From a virus: a stretch of 24,709 nt of DNA. The notes below the pieces were generated by a model. That model saw nothing but the letters and a program-made list of their open reading frames with translations. It had not been told where the DNA came from and did not search any database. The translations under genes and the position numbers were made by a program. This document shows positions 1 through 12,620 of the stretch, piece after piece; the stretch's first letter is position 1, and each line of letters opens with the position of its first letter. The stretch spans positions 1-24,709 of the IMG/VR virus record IMGVR_UViG_3300028388_004678, one strand, 5' to 3'.

Positions 1-227
1 TGTGCAAGACCATTACCATTACCATGATCAGTAAGAGCCCAAGCGTCCATGCCTTGCGATTCAGACAAAACAAAGTCAATATGATCTGCTGGGTAGCCTA
101 GTCCATCAAATGTAGATACCTAGGAGAAGGTTGAATGGGCATGCAAACCAACGAATCTGTCGGGTCTAAGCATATCAAGTTCAACCTTCTCTAGGCACCT
201 CCTTTCTGTGTTAAATGTGTTATTCAT
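1..227 (-). CDS. dnaE: DNA polymerase III alpha subunit (DnaE), N-terminal part with in-frame TAG; runs off the left edge
   Basis: This is the 5' end of a replicative C-family polymerase; only its PHP-domain start is in the window. After position 119 the frame encodes STFDGLGYPADHIDF, then GMDAWALTDHGNGNGL, matching the PHP pattern (HxH near the start, then ALTDHGN). The ATG at 225-227 follows AAAGG by 6 bases and opens a 35-codon stretch ending PDRFVGLHAHSTFS, which supplies the HxH motif. A TAG at 120-122 then interrupts the frame, and reading resumes in the same frame after it. An alternative ATG lies at codon 19. The HAHSTF codons differ at nearly every synonymous site from the detached copy at 1242-1307, so this start seems to have come with the endonuclease gene upstream. 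The family call is firm. Whether the stop is bypassed, read through or an error cannot be seen here. Confidence 0.82.
119..195 (-). repeat. Strong inverted repeat enclosing the recoded dnaE start
   Basis: The arms at 119-135 (cctaggagaaggttgaa on the plus strand) and 180-195 (ttcaaccttctctagg) pair over 16 bases with one bulged base. The 44-base loop (136-179) holds the codons for residues DMLRPDRFVGLHAH. In the mRNA the 3' arm contains the codons STFS, the UAG stop and the next two bases. The hairpin could affect translation at the stop, or it could be a scar of fold-back DNA synthesis. Confidence 0.75.
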
Positions 228-260
228 TATATACCTTTTTAATATGTTTAAATTTGATTT

Positions 261-289
261 ATTATAAAATACAATGTTATTATTTACAC
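261..289 (-). promoter_or_regulatory. Promoter P1 for dnaE (GTGTAAAT-N15-TATAAT)
   Basis: Read on the minus strand, GTGTAAAT (282-289) is followed by 15 bases and TATAAT (261-266). It lies just after the endonuclease stop codon and about 34 bases before the dnaE ATG. The same two boxes with the same spacing recur in front of other genes in this window. Confidence 0.7.
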
Positions 290-294
290 GTATT

Positions 295-1203
295 TTATTT
301 ACCTTCCCATAAAATCTTATCTGAGTAAGATTTTCTTAGAAAATCATATTCGTCGCCTGAGATTATTGCTAACGTTACGTCTGGGCGTGACTTCTTAAAT
401 TCAGAAATTTTTTCTGCTGATCGATTGTCCATATATCCTTTAATTTCAAAATATATGTTTCCAACCTTAAAATCTGGTGTATAAGTTATACCTTCAGATA
501 TTTCGAACGTATCTGGCTCATATTGAAATTTTATTTTATTATACGTTAAAACTCTAGCAAAGTTAGCTTCCCAGTTGCTTCTAACATAAAGATTTATGTC
601 CTCTCTAAAACCTCCGTTGCCAAAAGAGTATATTTTATATTTTTTAATTCTTTTTGCAGCATCTTTTGACATGTTACGTCTAACTTCTTTTGAAAACTTA
701 AAACCTTTTCTTAATTTTGAAAGTTTTGTTTTTGCTTGACTTGACTTTGTCCAGTGATCGACGCCATATTTTTTTAAGCAAGTTTCTTGAGATTTGTTTT
801 TCATTTCTCCAGAAGCCCATCTTTCTGTTAGGCCTTTTGAAAGCTTTTCTAAAGCTTCTTCACTAAATTTTCTTTCGCCATTGTCATATTGTCGCTTCAA
901 AGTTTCAGACAATTTTTTGTTTTGTTTTTCAGTTCTTTTATAAGATCCGTTTGTCTTTCTTGTTTTAACACCTTTTTTAAGTTTACAAGATTTACATTCC
1001 GTCTTTTGTTTAATCTTAGTTTTATCTAAAAATTCTTTATTGCAAATATTACATTTTTTTTGTTGCGCTGGTGATGTGTTCTTATTTTTCTTTCTAAGCT
1101 TGTAAGCACATTGTTTACTACATGTCTTTTGTGTCCTCTTCTTATAAATTACTTCAAATTCTTTATTACATATTTCGCATTTGTTTTTAACGTATCTTGG
1201 CAT
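295..1203 (-). CDS. Homing endonuclease, zinc-finger plus PD-(D/E)XK type, inserted in dnaE
   Basis: About 302 residues. The N-terminus has two Cys4 modules, the first C9-x2-C12 with C28-x3-C32, the second starting near residue 51. A basic Lys/Arg-rich middle follows, of the kind found in NUMOD-type DNA-binding linkers. The C-terminus carries RSNWEANFARVL, then YEPDTF, YTPDF and YFEIKG, the order expected of a PD-(D/E)XK or Vsr-like nuclease core with Asp in PDF and Glu-x-Lys in EIK. The ATG at 1201-1203 is chosen because AAAGGAGGT precedes it by three bases; the longer frame to 1230 lacks such a site. It sits between a detached dnaE 5' fragment and the rebuilt dnaE start, so it is very probably a mobile gene targeting the conserved HAHSTF codons. 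The closest relative here is the gene at 7682-8452, with the same domain plan. Cleavage specificity is inferred only from position. Confidence 0.85.
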   Translation of the reverse strand: MPRYVKNKCEICNKEFEVIYKKRTQKTCSKQCAYKLRKKNKNTSPAQQKKCNICNKEFLDKTKIKQKTECKSCKLKKGVKTRKTNGSYKRTEKQNKKLSETLKRQYDNGERKFSEEALEKLSKGLTERWASGEMKNKSQETCLKKYGVDHWTKSSQAKTKLSKLRKGFKFSKEVRRNMSKDAAKRIKKYKIYSFGNGGFREDINLYVRSNWEANFARVLTYNKIKFQYEPDTFEISEGITYTPDFKVGNIYFEIKGYMDNRSAEKISEFKKSRPDVTLAIISGDEYDFLRKSYSDKILWEGK

Positions 1204-1241
1204 ACTACCTCCTTTAAGGTAAATATACACATACTAAGTTT

Positions 1242-1307
1242 TTAAAATGTGCTGTGCGCATGAAGGCCGACAAATCTATCTGGAGGAATAATATTGTTTA
1301 ATGACAA
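1242..1307 (-). pseudogene. dnaE: Detached dnaE 5' fragment, copy 1 (fossil start)
   Basis: Twenty-one codons from a TTG start (1305-1307), preceded by AGAAAGG seven bases upstream. They encode a peptide ending NNIIPPDRFVGLHAHSTF, then TAA. The residues PDRFVGLHAHSTF are identical to those at the rebuilt dnaE start. It stops exactly where the continuing dnaE codons (STFDGLG) begin on the far side of the endonuclease gene. This is the upstream half of the original gene, separated by the insertion. It keeps a promoter (P2) and ribosome binding site, so a 21-residue peptide could still be made. Confidence 0.8.
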
Positions 1308-1330
1308 TTTATAACCTTTCTGTTTTTTAT

Positions 1331-6521: not shown

Positions 6522-7725
6522 TTAACTTAGGTTTTCCCCATCTTAAAGTAATTTGTGCATTATTATCTAGCATGTTTGTGCATATATTAAAAGGTTCTAC
6601 ATCATAAAACTTTATAATTTTATAAAGATTGTCGTACAAATAGTCAACACCTTCATCTAAAACTTGTTGGTCATTAAAAACATTTAAACTACCTTCAGCA
6701 AGAACAGGGCCTATTCTGCACATAATTTCTTCTATGATTGCGTTAAATGCAGCAGTGACTTGATTTGCGTTAACGACAAAAGAAAACTCGTTAGGTGCTG
6801 TATTAATTGTATTGCCACTTATAGACTGTAAAGCGCTTGTATTTGCATTATCAACCCCTAGAGTATAAACAGTAATGCATGGCTCTGCTGATGTAGAATA
6901 TATGCAGTTGTTATCGTTAATGCTTCTTATATTGTTTTGCACAAATGTCTGTGAGGGTCCAGATCCTTCGTTAGGCGATCCGTCTGAGATAAGAAGAATA
7001 TAGTAAGCTTCGTAGTTTGTCGTTTGAATTTGTGACATTGCTTCTTGCAAAGGCACAACGAAGTTTGTTCCTCCACTCGGGCTTCTATTGTTAACGATAG
7101 AAAGAACAGATTGCTTGTGTTGCTGACTTTTTCCAATACCTGATTTTTCTATCACACTGCTGTTATAAAGGATAACAGAATAACTTAGATTAAAGTCTGA
7201 GTTAATAAACTGTGTTACTGTGTCTTTAAGTTGCTGTATTCTGTTTCCTCCCATCGAACCGCTGTAGTCTAATAGCATAATAACAGCAGCATTAATTAAG
7301 TCAACATCATGAACTTCTTCAGCAACAGACACAGTTACAGACTTTGAAGTTTCTCCTCTTCCAGGATTATAGTTTGAGGTAATACCAAACTTTCTTACAC
7401 ACACGCTATCAGGCGTACATTCTAGACCTAAGTCAATGCACTCAAAGTCAGGAGAAACATTTTGTGAAATATAGCTAGCACATTCGTTAAGAGAGTCTGT
7501 ACTGCACAAGGCTTGAACATCATTAGTTTCTATTACAGACAAGCCTAAACCTACGCTACACGAGTCTAAGATTTGTTTTTCTTCGTAGACATTTAAAGCA
7601 ATTCTTCCGTATTGTATTGCTGAAAGAGATAAAAGTGCGAGCAAAGCAGCAATCATTGCAGTTGTCAAGGCGGCAAAACCTTTATGACGACGATTTTTTG
7701 AGGTATATAAGATGTCTTGTTCCAT
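6511..7725 (-). CDS. VWA-domain protein with prepilin-like N-terminus (TadG-like)
   Basis: 404 residues. RRHKG followed by FAALTTAMIAALLALLSLSA (residues about 12-36) resembles the leader and hydrophobic helix of TadE/TadG pseudopilins, so the body is probably outside the cytoplasm. The cysteines at about 54-110 support disulfides. A complete VWA domain follows: MIDAS motif DYSGSM near 151, the Thr in GGTNF, and ISDGSPNEG. In bacteria such proteins belong to Tad pilus or adhesin systems. In this phage context it may be a host-derived surface or superinfection protein, or a decoy; the role is unknown. The chosen ATG lies inside the end of the upstream endonuclease gene (44-base overlap) and has no clear ribosome binding site. 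Base composition matches its neighbours. Confidence 0.72.
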   Translation of the reverse strand: MEQDILYTSKNRRHKGFAALTTAMIAALLALLSLSAIQYGRIALNVYEEKQILDSCSVGLGLSVIETNDVQALCSTDSLNECASYISQNVSPDFECIDLGLECTPDSVCVRKFGITSNYNPGRGETSKSVTVSVAEEVHDVDLINAAVIMLLDYSGSMGGNRIQQLKDTVTQFINSDFNLSYSVILYNSSVIEKSGIGKSQQHKQSVLSIVNNRSPSGGTNFVVPLQEAMSQIQTTNYEAYYILLISDGSPNEGSGPSQTFVQNNIRSINDNNCIYSTSAEPCITVYTLGVDNANTSALQSISGNTINTAPNEFSFVVNANQVTAAFNAIIEEIMCRIGPVLAEGSLNVFNDQQVLDEGVDYLYDNLYKIIKFYDVEPFNICTNMLDNNAQITLRWGKPKLNVQ

Positions 7726-8452
7726 TATAATTTTTGTTTTCTATATTGTCTATATTCCAATAATGATTACTTTGCTTTATCTGAGTATAAAATTCATGCA
7801 TTAGCAAAACGTCAATGTTTACACCTTGCTGCTTCAAGATATCAGCAGCTAAAAGGTTAGAATTAAATTTTCTGTCTCTTCTTATAGCTTTAAGCTCTAC
7901 GTATCTATCTTCGTCCGGGTGATAAAAGTCTGGTGTATATTGCTTATCTCTGCCATCATACTGAACTGTGAATGTTTTATGCTCGTAAACATACGGCTTG
8001 TTTGTAGCTTCACACCATCGTGCATAGTCTGCCTCTAAAGACGACTTAAAAAAGTAGTTAGAAGGTAAATCATGCCTAAATCCCATTCTACCGTTAGAAG
8101 GTATTTCGTGAAGACCACTACTTTGTGCTTTGTTTTGGCAATCTTTACCACAGTACTTAGTTTCTCTGCCTATAGGCTTCTGGTAGTCACTTCCACAATA
8201 ATCGCACTTTAAATCGACTCTTTCAAGCTTGTTCTTTTTTAAGTAACATTCTCTAGTACAATAAGTTTTTCCTCTTTTTGACTTAAATTCTTTGCTACAT
8301 ACTTCACAATTTTTTAAAGTATACTTGGTGCTAGACTTATTTTTACATTCTCTAGAACAAAATTTAGATGTGTTTGCTCGAGATTTAGGTTTTTTGTATT
8401 TAACTTTACAGCTTTCACATTGTAAAGTTACTTGTGTTGATGCTTTTGACAT
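7682..8452 (-). CDS. Homing endonuclease-like protein with three zinc fingers and PD-(D/E)XK core
   Basis: 256 residues. Three Cys4 modules are visible in the first 110 residues (CESC with CSREC, CEVC with CTREC, CDYC with CGKDC). The C-terminal part has KSSLEADYARW, then YEHKTF, YTPDFYHP and RYVELKA, the same nuclease motif order as the gene at 295-1203; Asp in PDF and Glu-x-Lys in ELK are the expected catalytic residues. The start ATG 8452 follows AAAAGGAG. It lies between the epimerase and the VWA gene, and its last codons overlap the start of the VWA gene, so it has probably invaded that junction. Free-standing nucleases of this kind spread between related phages by cutting nuclease-free genomes. 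Confidence 0.8.
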   Translation of the reverse strand: MSKASTQVTLQCESCKVKYKKPKSRANTSKFCSRECKNKSSTKYTLKNCEVCSKEFKSKRGKTYCTRECYLKKNKLERVDLKCDYCGSDYQKPIGRETKYCGKDCQNKAQSSGLHEIPSNGRMGFRHDLPSNYFFKSSLEADYARWCEATNKPYVYEHKTFTVQYDGRDKQYTPDFYHPDEDRYVELKAIRRDRKFNSNLLAADILKQQGVNIDVLLMHEFYTQIKQSNHYWNIDNIENKNYNGTRHLIYLKKSSS

Positions 8453-10249: not shown

Positions 10250-10439
10250 GAATTTTATACTCCATAATATTGTATGGAACACAGTCTATATCATTATTAT
10301 AGACAATATACACCATAGCAGAAAAGTTATAGTCTTTCTTAAGCTTGTAAACAATACCAATTTTTTCAGGTTCATTTGAGTACAAAAAGTTATATTTTAT
10401 TAAATCACCTATTTTAATATCAAGAAAGTCAAGAGTCAT
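10233..10439 (-). CDS. Small SH3-like protein of unknown function
   Basis: About 68 residues. The ATG at 10437-10439 is preferred because TAGGTG precedes it by six bases and it overlaps the stop of nei. DIKIGDLIKY, then KIGIVYKL, AMVYIVYNND and a short closing strand, is the clearest member of the small barrel family here. Similar small proteins are common and mostly uncharacterised in large phages. Confidence 0.5.
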   Translation of the reverse strand: MTLDFLDIKIGDLIKYNFLYSNEPEKIGIVYKLKKDYNFSAMVYIVYNNDIDCVPYNIMEYKILDRKI

Positions 10440-11232
10440 TTTTAACACCTACTATTTGTCTTTCTTTTACCCAGTGTGTTGTTCTCTTATCAAGAGTCTG
10501 ACTTTTTATTACATCGTGTCCGTTAAAGTCTTTTTCTCTTCCATAAACAACAAATCCTTGTGATGCAGATCCTTCTTCACCGTTAAATGTATAGTAGCTT
10601 TGTATTGTGGCACCTTGCTCTGCGTATGATTTATTAATTACAAATACAATCGCTTTTTTAAGTGTTTCCAGATTTGTGTCTGTTAAATCTTTAATCAGCA
10701 CAAATGGATTAATACGTGAATACCATAAAGATTCTGCCTTGATATAATTTCCAACTCCAGAAATTACTTTTTGATTCATTATAACTTCACAAATATTTTT
10801 ATGATTATATTTTCTTAAACGAGCGACAAAGTCATCGGGAGGATTAGAAAGCATATCTGGTCCAATAGACTTTAACTTCTTTTCTAATTCAGATCGAGTC
10901 TTAACTTGAAAAGTGCCAAAATTTCTGATATCGTTAAAATAGAGTGTATCGTTTTCGTAAAAAGTAAATTCTATTCTTGAGTGTTTTGATTTTTCTCGAG
11001 ACCAATTTCCAGTCATTCCTAGAGTATTGAAAACAATTACGTCATCTAAGTCTATCCAAATAAACTTGCCTTTGCAGTCAAATGATTGAATTTCTTTACC
11101 TACTAGACTATTTAAGTTTTCTATTGGCTTTTTTAAATACCTACCACTCATCACTTTAACAGACTTAATCATGTTATATCTAAAGTTTTGATTAAGTCTT
11201 TCTACAAATAACTTTACTTCAGGTCCCTCAGG
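10429..11232 (-). CDS. nei: Fpg/Nei-family DNA glycosylase without a usable start codon
   Basis: From position 11232 the frame encodes PEGPEVKLFVERLN, the family N-terminus in which Pro is the catalytic nucleophile and Glu follows it; total length of about 268 residues is normal. GVGNYIKAESLW near 155 matches the helix-two-turn-helix GxGNxxxxExL. The C-terminus (DKRTTHWVKERQ) has the hairpin Arg of the zinc finger but no cysteines, a zincless finger as in NEIL1 and plant Fpg. The codon before Pro is TCG, not ATG: AAGGAGAATTAAATCGCC would be a perfect start if the single C were absent. The next ATG (11172) would lose Pro and Glu, giving an inactive enzyme. A GIY-YIG nuclease gene lies directly upstream, and a detached ATG-Pro-Glu start lies beyond it at 12125. 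Activity is doubtful as written. Confidence 0.82.
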   Translation of the reverse strand, partial: PEGPEVKLFVERLNQNFRYNMIKSVKVMSGRYLKKPIENLNSLVGKEIQSFDCKGKFIWIDLDDVIVFNTLGMTGNWSREKSKHSRIEFTFYENDTLYFNDIRNFGTFQVKTRSELEKKLKSIGPDMLSNPPDDFVARLRKYNHKNICEVIMNQKVISGVGNYIKAESLWYSRINPFVLIKDLTDTNLETLKKAIVFVINKSYAEQGATIQSYYTFNGEEGSASQGFVVYGREKDFNGHDVIKSQTLDKRTTHWVKERQIVGVKNDS

Positions 11233-11236
11233 CGAT

Positions 11237-12052
11237 TTAATTCTCCTTCCGAAATAATCGGCGTTGATAATTTAACAATATTTTATCCAAAGTAGTCTTT
11301 GTTATAGGATTATGCTTAATTATACAGTTTTTTGTCATATTTTCATTATAGTATAAATTTTCATATTTTACAATTTCTTTATGAGAAAGCTCTTCATAAG
11401 ATATTTTAGTTCTTGGCTGAAATGTTCCGTCAATAATTTTTGTAAAAGTTAATCTACTAATTCTTTCTTGCTTTTGAAAAGCTCTAGCACTAGATCCTCC
11501 TGATTCTAGGTACTCTTTCCAGGCTTGTTTTATTTCTTCAACTCTTTTAGCATTTGGTTTTAAAGATTGTTTTTTTCTTTTACCGTACACTCTTTCATAC
11601 TCTTCTGTACCTTTTATAAACTTTTTTCCTTTATTAGATGGTGTACGACCAGTGCCGCTTTGTTTTCTATTTGCATAATATTCTCTTCCCATAGCTTTCA
11701 TTGCTTTGCTAGTCTTTTCTGAAATTAATTTTTTTGTAGCATCTGTGTGAGTATCACCTTTATCAAACCCACCACAGTTTTCTGAAAGATTGTAAAAGTC
11801 TTCATTGTTTTTTGCGTCATAGTATGATATCCACTTTTCTTCTGCAATAATAGCTTCTTTTATGTCTCCGTATATTTCTTCCAGCGTTGATCTTTCAAAG
11901 TTTTCTTTGCCATGCTTTTTGATTGAAAGCTTAAGCCACTTACCTGAGCCTAGGTATCCTGCTTCCCATGCAGCTATATTAGAGCATCTTCCTACGTATT
12001 TCTTACCATTTAACTTGTTTGTTGTAATATAAATATAGTGATTTGTCTTCAT
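11237..12052 (-). CDS. GIY-YIG homing endonuclease inserted at the start of nei
   Basis: 271 residues. HYIYITTNKLNGKKYVGRC at the N-terminus is a variant of the GIY and YIG motifs. GSGKWLKLSIKKHGKENF and the Glu near 73 fit the remaining catalytic motifs. GGFDKGDTHTDATKKLISEK is a NUMOD3-like DNA-binding element, followed by basic repeats and a helix-turn-helix-like C-terminus. The start ATG follows GAGGAGGT. The leader ATATTTAC with GGAGGTAGTATG closely matches that of the unrelated nuclease gene at 295-1203. Its stop codon is five bases before the Pro codon of nei, and its last codons carry the AAGGAG that would serve nei. It is a mobile gene that separates nei from its original start. Confidence 0.88.
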   Translation of the reverse strand: MKTNHYIYITTNKLNGKKYVGRCSNIAAWEAGYLGSGKWLKLSIKKHGKENFERSTLEEIYGDIKEAIIAEEKWISYYDAKNNEDFYNLSENCGGFDKGDTHTDATKKLISEKTSKAMKAMGREYYANRKQSGTGRTPSNKGKKFIKGTEEYERVYGKRKKQSLKPNAKRVEEIKQAWKEYLESGGSSARAFQKQERISRLTFTKIIDGTFQPRTKISYEELSHKEIVKYENLYYNENMTKNCIIKHNPITKTTLDKILLNYQRRLFRKEN

Positions 12053-12077
12053 ACTACCTCCTCTATTTATAGTAAAT

Positions 12078-12125
12078 ATGCCAGAAGGTTGCTTTGTTTT
12101 AAATTAATTTCTCCTCTTCTGGCAT
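12078..12125 (-). repeat. Inverted repeat covering the fossil nei start codon
   Basis: ATGCCAGAAG (12078-12087) and CTTCTGGCAT (12116-12125) are perfect 10-base arms with a 28-base spacer. In the mRNA the fossil start codon and the next two codons are paired, which would hide that start from ribosomes. Confidence 0.7.
12099..12125 (-). pseudogene. nei: Detached nei start (fossil): ATG-Pro-Glu
   Basis: Six bases after AAAGGA and two after the stop of the upstream gene, ATG CCA GAA encodes M-P-E, the expected first residues of Nei; the frame closes after eight codons. The true gene body resumes at 11232 with Pro-Glu spelled CCT GAG. The position, operon-like spacing and ribosome binding site suggest this is the original nei start cut off by the endonuclease gene. 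Confidence 0.6.
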
Positions 12126-12127
12126 GT

Positions 12128-12340
12128 CTAGTCCTTTAGAATTGTACGATTAACTTCTGGAACATCATTTTCTGTGTTTGCTGTGTTTACTTCTTCAACA
12201 CCTTCTTTTGGAAGAGTTTGATCATGAACTTTATTAGCTAAATCTGATTTTCCTATCCAGTTTAAGATCTGCATCATAGGATGACCTATAATATTATGGA
12301 ATGCATAGTTTTTAAAAAATTTTTCGTATTTAAGATTCAT
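12128..12340 (-). CDS. Small conserved-looking phage protein of unknown function
   Basis: 70 residues from the ATG at 12338-12340, which has GAGGTG four bases upstream. The core FHNIIGHPMMQILNWIG, with HDQTLP shortly after, resembles a small motif I recall from other large phages, with possible membrane-interfacial helices. The C-terminus is acidic and probably disordered. It overlaps the upstream gene by 11 bases. It ends with TAG, showing that TAG is used as a real stop in this genome. Confidence 0.55.
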   Translation of the reverse strand: MNLKYEKFFKNYAFHNIIGHPMMQILNWIGKSDLANKVHDQTLPKEGVEEVNTANTENDVPEVNRTILKD

Positions 12341-12620
12341 AGAACACCTCAATTATTTCTTTATCACTGAAATATACTTTTTCATTGTCTTCACCTAACG
12401 CACAATAATATCCAAGTGGAAAGTTGTTTGTTTTAAAAAACAAAGGAATTGCACTTGACTTTTTACTAGTTTCCTTATCTATAAAGGTTATTAAGTAAGA
12501 CTTTTCAAATATAAATCTTCTTTCAGCTCTATTATTAAAAAGATCTTTGTATTTTGCATTTTTATAATGCTTAGTATCTTTAAAAGACCAGAACTTTAAA
12601 GTTTCTTTATTCAATTGCAT
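12330..12620 (-). CDS. Unknown small protein
   Basis: About 96 residues if read from ATG 12620; a longer frame reaches 12647 but overlaps the upstream gene by 41 bases. KFWSFKD, RFIFEKSYLITFID, SSAIPLFFK and GYYCALGED suggest a beta-rich fold. No known domain is recognised. It is translationally linked with its neighbours by overlaps at both ends. Confidence 0.5.
   Translation of the reverse strand: MQLNKETLKFWSFKDTKHYKNAKYKDLFNNRAERRFIFEKSYLITFIDKETSKKSSAIPLFFKTNNFPLGYYCALGEDNEKVYFSDKEIIEVFYES

Follow-up and report, generated by a model that had tools for sequence, protein, structure and literature searches.

Background

In fungal mitochondrial elements of the Allomyces atp6 type, a homing endonuclease gene (HEG) brings a substitute for the interrupted end of its target gene, and it is the 3' end that is replaced. 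To our knowledge, translational bypassing in phages is known essentially from gene 60 of T4. It is marked by a stop codon that immediately follows the codon of take-off, by a landing codon resembling the latter, and by a hairpin where take-off occurs (PMC5009743). The nuclease I-TevI represses its own gene through a copy of the homing site that acts as an operator (PMC2988022).

Here we describe a window of 24,709 nucleotides, the 24.7-kb record of a marine virus infecting bacteria, which carries T4-like phage genes and is coded mostly on the minus strand; all window features given below lie on that strand. Two of its genes, nei and dnaE, have a HEG in their 5' ends. These cassettes resemble the Allomyces atp6-type elements in replacing a gene end, but the ends replaced are 5' ends. 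The arrangement at nei is like that of the free-standing GIY-YIG HEGs of the T4 Seg family and I-TevI in that a GIY-YIG gene lies beside its target in a T4-like phage, with a late-promoter-like octamer (in the window) and a candidate leader hairpin or operator-like copy of the target (PMC2988022). Unlike those genes, the nei HEG would target a start codon, sits inside the start of the coding sequence, leaves a stub behind and is found in carriers that use ATC, TTG or TCG at the start of nei. The dnaE cassette is closer to mobA and gene 60 of T4, with a HEG upstream, a stop after the take-off codon, a stem loop and similar take-off and landing codons (PMC5009743). It differs from gene 60 in that the gap, at dnaE and at a third target, is 4-6 nt as against 50 nt, that the target is dnaE or a KWDGAPA gene, and that the sequence of a new N-terminal extension forms the hairpin.

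Results

The native start of nei lies upstream of a nuclease gene

The order at the locus is small gene, displaced nei start and stub, leader, GIY-YIG HEG, new 5' junction of nei and nei body. The small gene (12128..12352; PHROG 36447, conserved, function unknown) ends with TAG at 12130-12128, and this stop marks where the native start of nei belongs. After the two letters AC comes ATG CCA GAA GAG GAG AAA TTA ATT TAA, in which the motif ATGCCAGAAG (12116..12125) opens a stub of eight codons, MPEEEKLI* (12125-12099). Three HEG-free relatives (L013, L015 and L019) have the same small gene, followed a few nucleotides later by ATG CCA GAG or ATG CCA GAA opening an uninterrupted nei. Because ATG CCA GAR opens nei immediately behind this gene in these relatives, we identify ATGCCAGAAG as the displaced native start of nei, and a chance origin of these codons is excluded.

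A leader of 46 nt separates the stub stop from the HEG (11237..12052, 271 aa), whose own stop TAA occupies 11239-11237. The new junction (11233..11250) consists of the Shine-Dalgarno (SD) sequence GGAAGGAG at 11250-11243, the HEG stop, a single A and the triplet TCG (11235-11233) at the start-codon position; it aligns to TTG in L049 and L150 and to ATC in L008 and L230. From 11232 the sequence continues with CCT GAG GGA CCT GAA, the first CCT encoding the catalytic Pro1 of the nei body (10429..11232), a DNA glycosylase of the Fpg/Nei family.

A preliminary description of this DNA had taken the ATG CCA GAA after the preceding stop for a fossil start and had proposed that the nuclease entered the 5' end of nei and supplied a new SD and start region. 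Both readings are borne out by the sequence and by the HEG-free relatives. It had also named what would speak against the fossil start, namely nuclease-free relatives in which the preceding gene is also followed by ATG-Pro-Glu; we find this sequence, but as the start of intact nei genes, which supports the original reading. The respelling of the first codons extends to two codons and is, as that description had allowed, weak evidence on its own. Insertion of the HEG into nei with displacement of the native start is nearly certain.

Joining the old ATG CCA GAA to GGA CCT GAA would give exactly MPEGPEV, as would follow from excision of the insert at the RNA level or from ribosomes passing over it. 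We regard this as very improbable, since a search of the window returned no Rfam intron family at E<=1, known bypasses are far shorter than the insert of about 880 nt, and the old start is missing upstream of the HEG in the four other carriers. A self-splicing group I or II intron around the HEG was likewise rejected, the ORF being flanked by no more than 63 nt on its 5' side and 1 nt on its 3' side. An arrangement of take-off, stop and landing of the gene 60 type was found neither at 11225-11260 nor in the nei cassettes of L008, L049, L150 and L230.

The nuclease gene is mobile at a fixed site

The catalytic domain of the HEG matches Pfam PF01541 (E 7e-5, 23.5 bits against a cutoff of 22.6) and has the GKKYVGR that is invariant in A5, identifying it as GIY-YIG. 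The gene matches PHROG 314, homing endonuclease (E 4e-28), and has an orthologue in L008. Against annotated phages only distant Seg-like matches were obtained, covering <=64% among the matches listed.

A HEG lies next to nei in five carriers: the window (W), L008/L020, L049, L150 and L230. L008/L020 have the same HEG as the window, while L049, L150 and L230 have a diverged relative. The carriers occupy two separate and distant parts of the nei tree, and the HEG-free L013 is nested between W and L020. Between W and L008, dS is 0.18 for the N-terminal 120 codons of the HEG, whereas nei has 0.53 and a neighbour gene 0.72; the HEG, with its lower value, was exchanged more recently than the genes around it. 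In L021 the HEG is gone, but 39 nt from its 3' end remain as a scar (31/39 positions identical; score 23, compared to a shuffle mean of -1.5 with sd 3.4). The patchy presence before nei in two clades, the lower dS and this scar establish mobility at a fixed site: the same nuclease family recurs directly before nei in two distant clades and has been transferred between lineages. The C-termini of the HEG differ between close carriers (W and L008; L150 and L230), which makes repeated exchange of the right junction probable.

Elsewhere in the window, an endonuclease-like gene at 7682-8452 overlaps the start of the next gene. An orthologue stands at the same place in L004, and it is perhaps an ordinary phage gene.

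The nei gene is conserved and its start codon is not ATG in carriers

The nei body matches the Pfam families H2TH (6e-14) and Fapy_DNA_glyco (2e-13) and PDB entry 3a45 (E 8e-42), and combines an N-terminal PE with the H2TH domain. In the window the codon before Pro is TCG, and the reading frame from its last stop to CCT contains no ATG, GTG or TTG, so that we confirm the earlier observation that a usable start is missing. Members of the Fpg/Nei family need Pro1 at the N-terminus, where it is the nucleophile. Given this requirement and TCG at the start position, the exact sequence of the window would give no active Nei unless initiation is highly unusual, and active Nei is probably not made from it, or barely. 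A +1 frameshift at GCC UGA was considered and rejected, as it would yield an N-terminal Ala in place of the required Pro.

One explanation is plain chance, the HEG having landed beside a dispensable nei that then lost its start, with start codons free to drift. Decay of this kind would account for a TCG that is no known start and for the abundance of non-ATG starts in the nei family. Yet the body is intact over 263 codons, and its dN/dS, about 0.1 in comparison with L006 and 0.11 with L002, resembles that of HEG-free pairs: nei is under purifying selection. A clear SD precedes the nei start position in most carriers, and two distant clades share the nuclease family at this position. We therefore consider chance insertion and decay unlikely.

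We compared the start codons of HEG-associated and HEG-free nei genes, the former comprising five carriers and one scar that are mutually non-independent. The carriers have TCG (window), ATC (L008 and L230) and TTG (L049 and L150), and the L021 scar has ATT. The 39 HEG-free genes have 22 ATG, 13 TTG, 2 CTG and 2 GTG, with no ATC or ATT. Thus ATG is found in 0/6 compared to 22/39 (Fisher p 0.012) and ATC or ATT in 3/6 compared to 0/39 (Fisher p 0.0014), both values being subject to the relatedness of the carriers. A TTG start alone proves nothing, because TTG is common in HEG-free nei and also starts ThyX in 13/20 loci of these phages. For the latter reason, resistance is not a convincing explanation of the non-ATG excess among HEG-free nei genes.

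Three one-step routes lead to TCG: an extra C in ATG, a change of TTG to TCG, which fits L049 and L150, and insertion of G into ATC, which fits L008 and L230. The preliminary description had chosen the first, a single inserted C that broke an ATG, whether by mutation or by assembly error, in an otherwise normal Nei. Deleting one base does restore the SD and ATG CCT GAG at good spacing, and the HEG-free L039 has AAAATGCCTGAAGG. The HEG-linked alleles, however, never have ATG, and in the homologues with the closest spacing, L049 (AATTTAAATTGCC) and L150 (ACGTTGCCTGAGGG), TTG aligns exactly with the TCG of the window, one transition away. The one-C route is thus possible but not favoured, and as an account of the locus it is decidedly unlikely.

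Two kinds of HEG-free allele were also observed. In L031 and L033 nei starts with CTG directly after a small gene ending in KEN*, which resembles the new junction of the window. L013 and L028 keep ATG but read MPESPEV or MPEAPEV, with a change in an otherwise invariant Gly codon that lies within the presumed recognition site; these could possibly be resistance alleles.

The HEG leader carries an antisense copy of the nei start

The leader of the window HEG contains CCTTCTGGCAT (12078..12088), the reverse complement of ATGCCAGAAGG, as a candidate operator; it is also complementary to the HEG's own SD. The corresponding motif CCYTCNGGCAT, the reverse complement of ATG CCN GAR GG, is present in 5/5 nei-HEG leaders, as CCTTCGGGCAT in L008, CCCTCGGGCAT in L049 and CCTTCAGGCAT in L150 and L230. 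Within 1.1 Mb of loci plus the window, it occurs in that orientation in nei-HEG leaders only. Scanning IMG/VR for the motif followed by SD and ATG gave four contigs, all with nei-HEGs, and in 257 Gb of bacterial genomes an identical scan found seven matches before unrelated genes and none before a HEG. Copying of the downstream gene start gave no general signal among HEG leaders in an exact-match test of 144 HEG loci, a weak test in which some end coordinates are wrong.

Upstream of the window HEG we also find the T4-late-promoter-like octamer TATAAATA (12064..12071). A late promoter as a constant part of nei-HEG leaders was rejected, the octamer being absent from those of L008, L049, L150 and L230; it is present in HEGs of the third target.

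The motif might be nothing but the 5' arm of a hairpin that sequesters the ribosome-binding site, as in T4 HEGs, its match to the nei start being coincidental. CCYTC can pair with GGAGG, leaving the variable base as a bulge, and the leaders of L150 (-13.8 kcal/mol, z -3.5) and L049 (-10.9, z -2.0) are consistent with this. The GGCAT half, however, is largely unpaired in the leaders of W and L008 when folded alone, with stability barely above that of shuffles, and the motif matches the start of the neighbouring gene in 5/5 cases. Third-target HEGs, which belong to the same wider family, also copy their own target: their leaders carry GAACACATWGAAGATGAA, a sense copy of the target's EHIEDE codons, directly before TATAAATA, a layout similar to the I-TevI operator. 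This strengthens the operator reading, and we regard a hairpin with a coincidental match as conceivable but doubtful. The two roles of the motif are not exclusive. By analogy with I-TevI, the motif may be an operator that mimics the homing site and serves self-repression.

A model for homing at nei

A free-standing GIY-YIG HEG, whose target we propose to be the start of nei, has inserted into codon 4 of nei, leaving the native start as a stub while the right end of the cassette supplies a ribosome-binding site, a start-codon position and the Pro-Glu codons. The nuclease would recognise about ATGCCNGARGG, and the copy of this sequence in the leader would serve as the operator through which it represses its own gene, like I-TevI. 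The changed start codon would shield the carrier allele from cutting, at the cost of weak or HEG-coupled translation of Nei; the nuclease should then cut ATGCCAGAAGGACC DNA selectively over versions with TTG, ATC or TCG. We hypothesize that the start codon is the one changed because base changes there, and nowhere else, leave the protein the same. From the sequences compared, homing specific to nei, with protection through the loss of ATG, is likely but not proven, and the complete model, with insertion, protection by a non-ATG start and a leader operator, appears somewhat better than evenly supported.

A second cassette with a candidate stop-hop at dnaE

The dnaE cassette occupies window positions 1-1330. 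The native start (1242..1307; TTG...LHAHSTF, then TAA) is near-identical to that of the intact, HEG-free L010 and lies upstream of a HEG (295..1230) of an unrelated nuclease family with endonuclease- and Holliday-junction-resolvase-like PHROGs. On the 3' side of this HEG is a second copy of the promoter region and N-terminus, at a repeat spacing of about 1.1 kb. The replacement N-terminus (106..227, ATG at 227-225) reads MNNTFNTERR...HSTFS, then TAG GTA, then TCT ACA TTT GAT GGA, and the stretch had no match in phages.

The in-frame stop is flanked by the Ser codons TCC and TCT (TCC-TAG-GTA-TCT, 125-114) and is kept in seven relatives (L139-L144 and L146), L144 having TCG TAG ATA TCT. A hairpin with arms at 200-180 and 135-114 reaches as far as the stop and landing codon; it has 21 pairs and about -40 kcal/mol, with 99% of cells paired. 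Among the changes within it are GU, CG and UA alternatives; double-sided change, seen in 1/21 pairs, is not separable from chance by shuffles. In the 22 codons that separate the stop from the first Met, variation is almost entirely synonymous, a pattern that may partly predate the insertion. The window dnaE and its close relatives thus combine a hairpin at take-off with a stop behind the take-off codon and a landing codon similar to it, in the form UCC/UCG-UAGGUA/UAGAUA-UCU, and on this comparative sequence evidence the ribosome probably hops over the conserved stop, making this a candidate programmed stop-hop. The more distant dnaE genes of L147 and L148, with a HEG upstream and without the old start, keep the stop as TAA in a different setting, TCG TAACG ACC, where the landing codon is unmatched, and a hairpin of their own (L147:3467-3555, L148:3262-3350; GUGAGAAUG/CAUUCUCAC against GUGCGAGUG/CAUUCGCAC).

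In L011, dnaE has an apparent intein-like segment (CLHPDTTLQTSSG...), which suggests that several mobile elements use this gene.

A third target, a ligase-like KWDGAPA gene, was found outside the window in L151, L152, L153, L158 and L159. Its layout is HEG, late-promoter octamer, hairpin and a Glu-stop-Glu junction (L151:1769-1850, L152:2447-2528) that reads CTT GAG TAAT GAG CAT or CTT GAA TAGCT GAG CAT. At this place the native Melnitz phage has CTAGAACAT (LEH), and native phages read HLEHIED uninterrupted. The hairpin has z about -6 against mononucleotide shuffles, three doubly changed pairs and 100% of cells paired. Since the frame change differs between cases, hopping suits the data better than one kind of frameshift.

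Discussion

The preliminary description had seen at nei the same arrangement as at dnaE, with two unrelated nuclease families. This stands insofar as both 5' ends have been invaded, native starts displaced and new ones supplied. The common strategy drawn from it holds in outline; in detail dnaE has a duplicated promoter and N-terminus, a hairpin and a stop, and nei has only an SD and start region. We suggest that nei has no hop cassette because a hop adds N-terminal residues that Nei, with Pro1 as its nucleophile, would not tolerate.

Cassettes that enter the 5' ends of genes in these phages may leave the target functional yet uncuttable, by a non-ATG start at nei and by a hairpin and hopped stop at dnaE and the third gene, a reading that we judge almost as likely as not. 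It would amount to a recurrent and mobile form of T4 gene-60-like bypassing. The dnaE locus of the window suggests that bypassing is a repeated companion of homing nucleases, in which case many short natural stop-hops would be available for study. If the reading of the start codon is right, a selfish nuclease that reads this codon would explain the drift of a repair gene to AUC, AUU and UUG, and host gene and nuclease would be co-evolving at the one codon where the DNA, and not the protein, can change.
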